NCBI GenBank assembly: GCA_025352795.1
Contig: JANXSF010000086.1
Span: 1 to 64,000 of the forward strand
DNA: 64,000 nt
From: Acidobacteriota bacterium
GTDB taxonomy: Bacteria; Acidobacteriota; Terriglobia; Bryobacterales; Bryobacteraceae
Direction of reading: 5' to 3'
Shown here: positions 25,617-29,403 of the stretch, in pieces
Numbering within the stretch: position 1 is the first letter of the stretch
Layout of the letters: the number at the start of each line of letters is the position of its first letter
Position numbers and translations under genes: made by a program
Notes under the pieces: generated by a model
What the model saw: the letters and a program-made list of their open reading frames with translations, nothing else
The model's database searches: none
What the model was told of the DNA's origin: nothing

Positions 25617-26036
25617 CTATTGGCAATGCTCATCAAACGCTGCGGTCAACGCCGCCGCAATTTCAAATGCCTGACGATTTTCAATTTGATGACGATGCAT
25701 AAGGAACACCGGTTTTCCATCCTTAAAAAGCGCCATCGAAGGCGAAGATGGCGGAAACGCAACCAGAATGTCCCGGACACGTTGCACGGCTTCTACATCA
25801 GCTCCGGCAAATACAGTAGCCGACACTTTCGGCACGCTCGTATGCTTCATGGCCATTAAAATTCCCGGCCTGGCTTTGCCTGCGGCACACCCACAAACCG
25901 AATTCACAACCATCAACACCGTTCCCGATTCTGGTCCAATCAGTTGGTCAACTTGTTCAGGCGTGCGGGCTTCAACGAAACCGTTTTGTGATAGTTCGGC
26001 CCTCATGGGCGCAATAAGAGGTTCTGGATAACGCAT
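25617..26036 (-). CDS. Bacilliredoxin (BrxA/BrxB, YphP/YqiW family)
   Basis: A 139-residue thioredoxin-fold protein with the CGC active site (C48, C50) in VVNSVCGCAAGKARPG. The ending IEN...FEIAAALTAAFDEHC is typical of the family. Bacilliredoxins remove bacillithiol from proteins (de-bacillithiolation); acidobacteria are among the phyla reported to make bacillithiol, as I recall. Probably cytosolic. It may be co-transcribed with the NlpC/P60 gene. It is a second thiol-redox gene within 2 kb of the Sec-type redoxin. Confidence 0.85.
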   Translation of the reverse strand: MRYPEPLIAPMRAELSQNGFVEARTPEQVDQLIGPESGTVLMVVNSVCGCAAGKARPGILMAMKHTSVPKVSATVFAGADVEAVQRVRDILVAFPPSSPSMALFKDGKPVFLMHRHQIENRQAFEIAAALTAAFDEHCQ

Positions 26037-27304: not shown

Positions 27305-28351
27305 ATGCGAACGCTTATAGCCTCTCTCCTCCTTACCGCCTTCTCTAAACCATCTTTGGCGCAGACCTTCGCCGATAAATTGGGACCAGCCGTCGGCGCA
27401 GCAATCCCCGCTTTCGAAGCCACCGATCAAAGCGGCAATTTGCGACAACTCAAATCCATTGCCGGACCCAAGGGCACAATCCTCCTCTTTATCCGCTCAG
27501 CCGATTGGTGACCATACTGCAAAAGCCAGCTGGTCGAGCTGGAAGAATGGTTGCCGGAAGTTAAAAAACGTGGCTATGGAGTGGCCTCCATCAGTTACGA
27601 TTCCGTGCCTGTCCTGAAAAATTTTGCCGACCGGAAAAAGCTCACCTACCCACTGCTATCCGATCCGGATTCGAAAATCATAAAGGCTTTCGGCATTCTC
27701 AACGAAGGACCAAAGTCAGGATTTGCCGTCGGGATTCCCCATCCGGGCATTTTCATGATCACCAGCGCAGGCAAGGTCGAAGCTAAATACTTTGAAGAAG
27801 ACTACCGCGAACGGCTCACCATTTCCGCTCTGCTCTCCAATAAATTCGGCAAACCAGGCTTGGCCGCCGGAGATATAACAGAGGGCAAGAATGCACGAAT
27901 CACCCCAGTTGCCAGCAGTCTTGTGATTAGAGCTGGCCAGCATCTGGTATTGAGCCTCAATATCGAACTTCCCAAGGGCCTTCACGCCTACGCCCCAGGT
28001 GCGCCGGAAGAGTTCATCCCTGTTGATTGGAATACTATCGAAAATGATGCCTTCCGCTGGGGGATTCTGGAAACGCCAACTCCCAAACGCTTAGCCGTTG
28101 GCGGGGAACCAATTCCTGTTCCGGTTTTTGAAGGGAAATTCACCTTGAAACGTGAATTCATCGCCGCCAATCAAGCCAAACTAAAAGCCGCTTCAGACTC
28201 CCAAGGTACACTGATAGTACCCGCTGCTTTCCGCTACCAAGTCTGTTCAGACCGTCAATGCTTTCCGCCACAAACGGTCAGTTTGACTTGGAAGTTGCGC
28301 GTGGAACAATTGGAATCAGAGCGTGTGCCAGAAGAATTGCGCAGGAAATAA
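27305..28351 (+). CDS. Probable selenoprotein: secreted peroxiredoxin-like (UxxC) domain fused to nDsbD-like domain
   Basis: Read with TGA 27509-27511 as selenocysteine, this is one 348-residue protein with no other stop. It starts with a signal peptide (RTLIASLLLTAFSKPSLAQT). An AhpC/TSA redoxin domain covers about 28-175 (FEATDQSGNLRQL, ILLFIRSADW-U69-PYC72-KSQLVELEEW, YPLLSDPD, PGIFMIT). Cys relatives have WCPYC or WCPFC here, so the TGA stands on the catalytic position. A DsbD alpha-like domain follows (about 195-340) with C314 and C319 in YQVCSDRQCFPPQ. The segment after the TGA has no early ATG and could not fold alone. A hairpin behind the TGA supports recoding. A nonsense mutation or sequencing error at a Cys codon is the alternative. 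The role is likely periplasmic thiol-peroxide or disulfide exchange. Confidence 0.75.
27512..27550 (+). promoter_or_regulatory. Candidate bacterial SECIS hairpin
   Basis: Directly after the TGA, CCAGCT (27526-27531) pairs perfectly with AGCTGG (27537-27542) around loop GGTCG. Lower pairs CCAT (27512-27515) and ATGG (27547-27550) can close the base. The loop GGU starts 21 bases after the TGA, near the spacing in E. coli fdhF, and bacterial SECIS loops need an early G, often GU. Caution: the encoded QLVEL would favour a CAGCT/AGCTG pairing even in Cys-containing relatives, so the hairpin is supportive, not proof. Confidence 0.6.
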
Positions 28352-28368: not shown

Positions 28369-29403
28369 TTGGAATCTATCTATTGGGTGCTTAGCTGGTT
28401 GTGTCATCGCAAATGTGAGCATTGCTACGAAGACCGCTTTCACCCCTACTATGGCCATGAGTTGGCAGAAGTGGTACAGGAAGCAGAACAGAATTTTGCT
28501 CCCATCATCACCAACCTTCCTCCCAACATGCTCTACTGTGACGCGGCTGACGGTCTGCAGAAAAAACGTGGTCGTATCATTCTGGCTGGTGGGGAAATCC
28601 TCCTGGAACCAGTTCGACGCACAGTGCTCTATCCAGCGCTCGATCTGTTGTACGAAAAATACAAGAACGTCGGTGGCGTGGAACTCATTGTCCAAACCAC
28701 TGGCGACCTGGTCAACGGGCGCATCATTGAGGAACTGCTGGCGCACCACGTTGACCTCATCTCCGTCTCCGGCTTGGATGAGTATCACGAAGGTCTTGAG
28801 CAAGAGCCTGCCCGCTTAGCTTTGCGAGCCAAACTCACCCAGCTATTTGAAACCAATGGCATTCGCCAATTCCCAACAGACGCGGCCAGAAGTACGCAAA
28901 TTGGCCCGTTCTACAATTTCTTTGGAGCTACCACAGATTCTTGGATCGGCAAGATCTGGCCCCGCGGCCGAGCGCATACCAACGAGCTTTCCACCGCCAC
29001 GCTAGCCGATAACTTTTGTAACGCCTGGTCCGGAGGGCTAAATTTTCTGGATTCCGCCCACGGCGGTAGTGAAGTTTCCATTGAACCCAATGGCAACGTT
29101 TATCCTTGCTGCATGAAAACCAAGAAGGCGATTGGAAATCTACGCACGGAATCTCTCTCTTACATTCTTCAGCGGTTGCGCGGGAATCCCGTCTACGAAG
29201 CGATTTCCATGGGCCATCCTGAACGCATGGGCATCCAACACGGCTGGAGTGTGGAAAAGTTCTACCAGAAATCCATCACTACGCTACCTTCCGGTAAGCA
29301 ATATCAAAATCTGTGCATAGGTTGCGACAAGTTCCACGACGAAGTACTCTCACCAGTTATTCAAATAAAGTCCGGGACAAGTGAACATTTCTCAGATTCT
29401 TAA
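28369..29403 (+). CDS. Radical SAM protein with SPASM/twitch-like C-terminus
   Basis: AAAGGAG (28351-28357), overlapping the stop of the Sec-type redoxin gene, points to the TTG at 28369 as start (344 aa); the frame is open back to 28258. The radical SAM cluster is C12-x3-C16-x2-C19 (CHRKCEHC). The C-terminal half has YPCCMKTKKAIGNL (C247, C248) and C316-x2-C319 (LCIGCDKFHDE), which look like ligands of an auxiliary Fe-S cluster. The glycine motif AGGEI is present. Function unknown: no RiPP precursor or known cofactor pathway is adjacent. Coupling to the redoxin gene suggests a common process. The last 12 bp overlap the end of the convergent exporter gene. Confidence 0.75.
   Translation: MESIYWVLSWLCHRKCEHCYEDRFHPYYGHELAEVVQEAEQNFAPIITNLPPNMLYCDAADGLQKKRGRIILAGGEILLEPVRRTVLYPALDLLYEKYKNVGGVELIVQTTGDLVNGRIIEELLAHHVDLISVSGLDEYHEGLEQEPARLALRAKLTQLFETNGIRQFPTDAARSTQIGPFYNFFGATTDSWIGKIWPRGRAHTNELSTATLADNFCNAWSGGLNFLDSAHGGSEVSIEPNGNVYPCCMKTKKAIGNLRTESLSYILQRLRGNPVYEAISMGHPERMGIQHGWSVEKFYQKSITTLPSGKQYQNLCIGCDKFHDEVLSPVIQIKSGTSEHFSDS

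Follow-up and report, generated by a model that had tools for sequence, protein, structure and literature searches.

Relatives of the predicted selenocysteine-containing redoxin

Prx-like thiol:disulfide oxidoreductase selenoproteins (PF00578) with UxxC or UxxU motifs have already been listed (PMC13188914, PMC9312934; "Prx-like 1" in PMC2398784), and a redoxin family selenoprotein (PF08534, UxxC) appears in a published table (PMC13188914). Acidobacteria were credited in 2006 with four selenoproteins from three families (PMC1794560). Here, we describe a gene within a 64-kb window, meaning the whole stretch of DNA that was analysed, whose predicted product shares with the Prx-like UxxC selenoproteins an AhpC/TSA domain, a selenocysteine (Sec) as the first residue of UxxC, Cys-containing homologues, and a bSECIS hairpin, but which, compared with that family by description only, adds a C-terminal domain with a Cys pair that resembles the N-terminal domain of DsbD (nDsbD). 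With the redoxin family selenoprotein it has in common PF08534 (65.5 bits) and UxxC, although PF00578 scores higher here, the comparison being with the table entry only.

Two NCBIfam families share the redoxin fold, namely NF040769 (SelL-related redox protein) and NF041054 (ResA-like WAxxUGC, named for its Sec motif), yet with scores of 44 against a cut-off of 120 and 19.3 against a cut-off of 300 the protein is a member of neither, and no model in NCBIfam 20.0 reaches its cut-off with it. The core fold is also that of ResA/TlpA oxidoreductases and of Mycobacterium tuberculosis AhpE/Bcp, which are the best PDB matches; the known ones, in contrast, are Cys-only and have no nDsbD. As for nDsbD itself (PF11412; PDB 3pfu and 1z5y), fold and invariant Cys pair are the same, but in DsbD the domain stands ahead of the membrane domain, whereas here it lies behind a selenium redoxin. 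No description of such an nDsbD fusion was found in the literature covered, a limited set of papers. The selenium chemistry is of the known Prx-like UxxC type; the fusion is an unusual architecture without NCBIfam coverage.

A single in-frame TGA in a conserved gene

27305-28351, + strand: whole gene of the predicted selenoprotein, 348 residues with Sec at 69 when translated with TGA as U; full-length homologues in Acidobacteriota
27509-27511, + strand: putative Sec codon TGA (U69); TGA or Cys at the same codon in all aligned homologues

The frame starts with an ATG at 27305 and ends with a TAA at 28349-28351, and its sole in-frame stop is the TGA at 27509-27511, in the context LFIRSADW-TGA-PYCKSQLVEL (RSADW-U-PYC). 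The initial annotation had described one TGA with 279 open codons after it and no early ATG, and translation together with a start-codon scan confirms this: downstream of the TGA the first alternative in-frame start is a TTG at 27551. That TTG is available to a reading in which the locus encodes two proteins, a short secreted peptide ending at the TGA and a second protein initiated further down, but the start lies inside the redoxin fold and would omit the active site, and the Cys homologues are single continuous proteins over the same length. The earlier view that a separate downstream gene is unlikely is thereby borne out, and on these comparative data we reject the split-gene reading, whose chances are close to nil.

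Homologues were found in 53 of 396 Acidobacteriota genomes in a phylum-wide search, with a single in-frame TGA in most matches, and in 94 of 200 genomes in an order-wide search, mostly as the Sec form with one in-frame TGA. The codon itself is conserved: TGA occupies the identical position in 23 of 30 loci fetched from the phylum search (Cys in the remaining 7) and in 18 of 19 new loci fetched from the order search (TGT in one), counts of TGA copies that are non-independent. Every in-frame TGA of the fetched homologues falls on the U69 codon, and relatives without a TGA carry Cys there, so that the UGA column shows the Cys by which bacterial selenoproteins are recognized among homologues. A further 80 loci from named organisms, collected by a Cys-pattern search, are Cys forms by construction and thus uninformative on Sec frequency. 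The full-length ones among them belong to Acidobacteriota, the sole exception being a record labelled Bifidobacterium; for more distant loci the alignment is confined to the redoxin part. The exceptional record (L078, titled as a Bifidobacterium breve MAG) has an acidobacterial-type Cys copy and is probably a mislabelled or contaminated bin.

A copy from the same genus (L178 in genome G554) is 74% identical and keeps both the TGA and the hairpin described below. Over the sites after the TGA, comparison with this copy gives a pS of ~0.79 vs a pN of 0.14, which argues that the sequence beyond the stop is translated and maintained by selection; judged by these substitutions, purifying selection on the frame 3' of the TGA is strong. 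In close relatives the TGA is retained, and scattered stops or frameshifts are lacking. A Cys codon turned into TGA by a single substitution or a read error, in a dead or misassembled gene, would give the same picture at a single locus, and the window copy does fall on a long branch when the tree uses distant relatives alone. Against such a pseudogene or sequencing error stand the TGA at the same codon in independent genomes, including the same-genus copy, the intact downstream frame under purifying selection, and the retained hairpin. For the family, the recurrent TGA and hairpin refute this explanation, which we regard as highly improbable.

A bSECIS hairpin that accompanies the putative Sec codon

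27526-27542, + strand: candidate bSECIS upper hairpin CCAGCU-GGUCG-AGCUGG; MFE fold, retained in TGA copies with paired substitutions, fits the model of PMC13188914

The published bSECIS rules call for a stem of 4-16 bp, a loop of 3-9 nt with G in the first two loop positions, a UGA-to-loop distance of 16-37 nt, and an MFE of at most -7.5 (PMC13188914). The RNA fold of UGACCAUACUGCAAAAG-CCAGCU-GGUCG-AGCUGG has a 6-bp stem and the 5-nt loop GGUCG, with the hairpin starting 14 nt and the loop 20 nt after the UGA and an MFE of -14.0 kcal/mol over 48 nt, and lies within every limit of the model. At the same fixed position, the stem, loop-G, and MFE rules are passed by all 51 TGA copies. By itself the hairpin is weakly unusual (single-sequence z = -1.57), and the case therefore rests on comparison.

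All five core pairs form in 51/51 TGA copies vs 5/28 acidobacterial Cys copies, and GU is found in the loop of 51/51 vs 8/28; for the hairpin in TGA vs Cys copies, Fisher's test gives p = 2e-15, calculated ignoring relatedness. Both-sided changes are observed at pairs 18:34, 21:31, and 22:30 among the copies compared, and full stems are present in 34/34 copies vs 5.4/34 expected under synonymous codon shuffling that preserves the peptide. With the residues that encode the hairpin excluded from tree building, we count at least 5 Sec/Cys interchanges on well-supported branches and 12 on the best tree. Across independent Sec/Cys pairs on the tree the hairpin tracks Sec in nearly all cases and is never reversed; in the five well-supported changes it goes with Sec or is unchanged, a sample (n = 5) too small for p < 0.05.

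One close Cys-form relative amid Sec copies (L182, from genome G466, with DWCVYC) has a nearly intact hairpin with 5/6 pairs and, from its sequence, looks like a recent Sec-to-Cys change.

Throughout the 64-kb window, 24 TGA codons are flanked on both sides by 60 or more open codons, and a SECIS-like hairpin follows 2 of the 24, one of them the redoxin TGA, which speaks against a chance occurrence. The second such candidate, TGA 5899 (+ strand), was discarded, since a long ORF of 890 aa runs antisense to it.

Selenocysteine machinery of the host

C79:76278-77201: SelD gene (L054) with an in-frame TGA, on the same contig as the redoxin gene and ~12 kb beyond the window

The source genome (6.05 Mb in 140 contigs, 96.6% complete) encodes one tRNA-Sec with anticodon TCA as well as SelB, SelA, and SelD, recovered by profile search with 387, 493, and 366 bits, respectively. 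The in-frame TGA of SelD sits in the N-terminal motif AAG-U-ASK, and SelD is therefore a second probable selenoprotein. SelB scores over its cut-off in 28/30 genomes with TGA copies, the remaining two having a tRNA-Sec with TCA, and in 2/7 Cys-only genomes, the other five showing only tRNA-Ser; for this comparison genomes were assigned by hand from the phylum search, leaving out the partial matches G075 and G258.

The complete machinery also bears on whether the TGA might be read otherwise, by reassignment to Trp or by general read-through. We found no support for either, and apart from the machinery, the homologues carry Cys rather than Trp at this codon and the bSECIS hairpin is present. Rejected on these comparative data, a change of code is vanishingly unlikely.

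Homologues, machinery, and relatives thus support the proposal of the initial annotation that Sec replaces a redox-centre Cys; the bSECIS hairpin and the C-terminal nDsbD domain are additions to it. We conclude from sequence comparison that the TGA at 27509-27511 is almost certainly decoded as Sec and that the gene is a genuine selenoprotein gene (probability of about 0.96), the Sec insertion itself being what we infer from these comparisons.

The redoxin domain and its UxxC site

27305-27364, + strand: probable signal peptide (MRTLIASLLLTAFSKPSLAQ), identified by eye; the AF2 model has low confidence in this part
27392-27784, + strand: AhpC/TSA (redoxin) domain, residues 30-160; PF00578 101.3 bits, PF08534 65.5 bits; Foldseek matches AhpE, Bcp, and ResA-type proteins
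27518-27520, + strand: C72, second residue of the UxxC pair, invariant in the alignment

The predicted product, modeled by AF2 with a pLDDT of 91 for the whole protein, is probably exported, as suggested by its N terminus. Its redoxin domain far exceeds the PF00578 gathering score (101.3 bits vs 26) with UPYC as the UxxC motif, the AhpC/TSA domain is found in 24/24 aligned homologues, and the closest solved folds are AhpE, Bcp/PrxQ, and ResA-type proteins. In the alignment, U69 falls on the first Cys of the ResA WCxxC and on the position held by Thr in peroxiredoxins (TxxC), and C72 matches the second ResA Cys and what we take to be the peroxidatic Cys in AhpE and Bcp. The Thr that a typical peroxiredoxin has three residues before the peroxidatic Cys is replaced by U or Cys in all aligned homologues. 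The initial annotation had placed the TGA at the active-site Cys of a peroxiredoxin-like domain; this holds insofar as the codon marks a redox Cys position, but the residue corresponds to the first Cys of a thioredoxin CxxC and not to the peroxidatic one. With Sec at the thioredoxin nucleophile position, thiol:disulfide exchange would be likelier than a classic peroxidase function.

The main functional rival is a selenoprotein with chiefly peroxidase activity, where peroxides would be attacked by U69 or C72 and the site then regenerated by the nDsbD domain. Such a role would agree with the AhpE, Bcp, and thiol peroxidases among the closest sequence and fold neighbours, and with the alignment of C72 to the peroxidatic Cys. 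The first position, however, is U or Cys as in ResA and not the Thr of TxxC, and strict conservation of a UxxC/CxxC pair is characteristic of disulfide exchange, so that we consider a predominantly peroxidatic function possible but rather unlikely.

An nDsbD-like domain and a possible electron relay

27926-28279, + strand: nDsbD-like domain, residues 208-325; PF11412 26.1 bits vs cut-off 25; AF2 model matches E. coli nDsbD 3pfu with E 3e-6
28244-28261, + strand: C314-C319, invariant Cys pair of the nDsbD-like domain (CSDRQC), from alignments

The sequence score for PF11412 (DsbD_N) is just above the Pfam cut-off, and the match coincides with an nDsbD fold, closest to the nDsbD structures of E. 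coli and Neisseria meningitidis, and with the Cys pair. The domain is present in 23/24 homologues. We take C314/C319 to be comparable to the pair C103/C109 of E. coli nDsbD, the spacing being CxxxxC here and presumably CxxxxxC in E. coli. The source genome additionally encodes a complete DsbD, with both an nDsbD and a cDsbD.

At a separate locus on contig C41 in G000 (L021, positions 407-1872 of the locus), two TlpA/ResA-like thioredoxin genes are followed directly by a stand-alone gene for a secreted nDsbD-like protein (CTENAC), an arrangement that links the two functions fused in the window gene.

For the selenoprotein, we propose that UGA 27509 would be read by SelB with Sec-tRNA(UCA), recruited by the bSECIS hairpin, and that the product, with its probable signal peptide, would go to the periplasm. 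There, the redoxin domain with U69-x-x-C72 may function as a fast thiol/selenol:disulfide oxidoreductase, possibly with a peroxide-reducing side activity. Electrons would pass from membrane DsbD to C314/C319, then to the U69/C72 selenenylsulfide, and finally to an oxidised substrate. The Sec site, the fold, and the domain pairing are supported by the alignments and models above; export, the direction of electron flow, and the substrate are what we infer. On balance we lean slightly towards the nDsbD relay as drawn, with DsbD feeding U69-C72 via C314/C319.

Gene neighbourhood

28371-29403, + strand (ORF listed from 28258): radical SAM/SPASM protein, just downstream of the selenoprotein gene
25617-26036, - strand: BrxA/BrxB-family bacilliredoxin, ~1.3 kb upstream of the selenoprotein gene

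The radical SAM/SPASM protein has no NCBIfam equivalog near its cut-off. In the flanks fetched, the radical SAM, LuxR-type regulator, bacilliredoxin, NlpC/P60, MFS, and LysR-type genes that flank the window copy are all absent beside homologues. No operon link is therefore claimed.

Significance for acidobacterial selenium biology

The gene may represent an acidobacterial subfamily, widespread and as yet undescribed, of exported selenoproteins that fuse a Sec redoxin to an nDsbD electron donor of their own in a self-contained, DsbD-fed periplasmic relay, and in which Sec and Cys have been swapped repeatedly along with gain and loss of the SECIS; to this broader picture we give even odds. Standard annotation easily splits such genes or calls them pseudogenes, and a redox protein present in 94/200 genomes of the order can be missed because it is split or mislabelled in this way. 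The gene suggests that abundant soil bacteria use selenium beyond the cytoplasm. With natural matched Sec and Cys copies, and a SECIS that tracks Sec, the reasons for retaining or losing Sec become directly testable.
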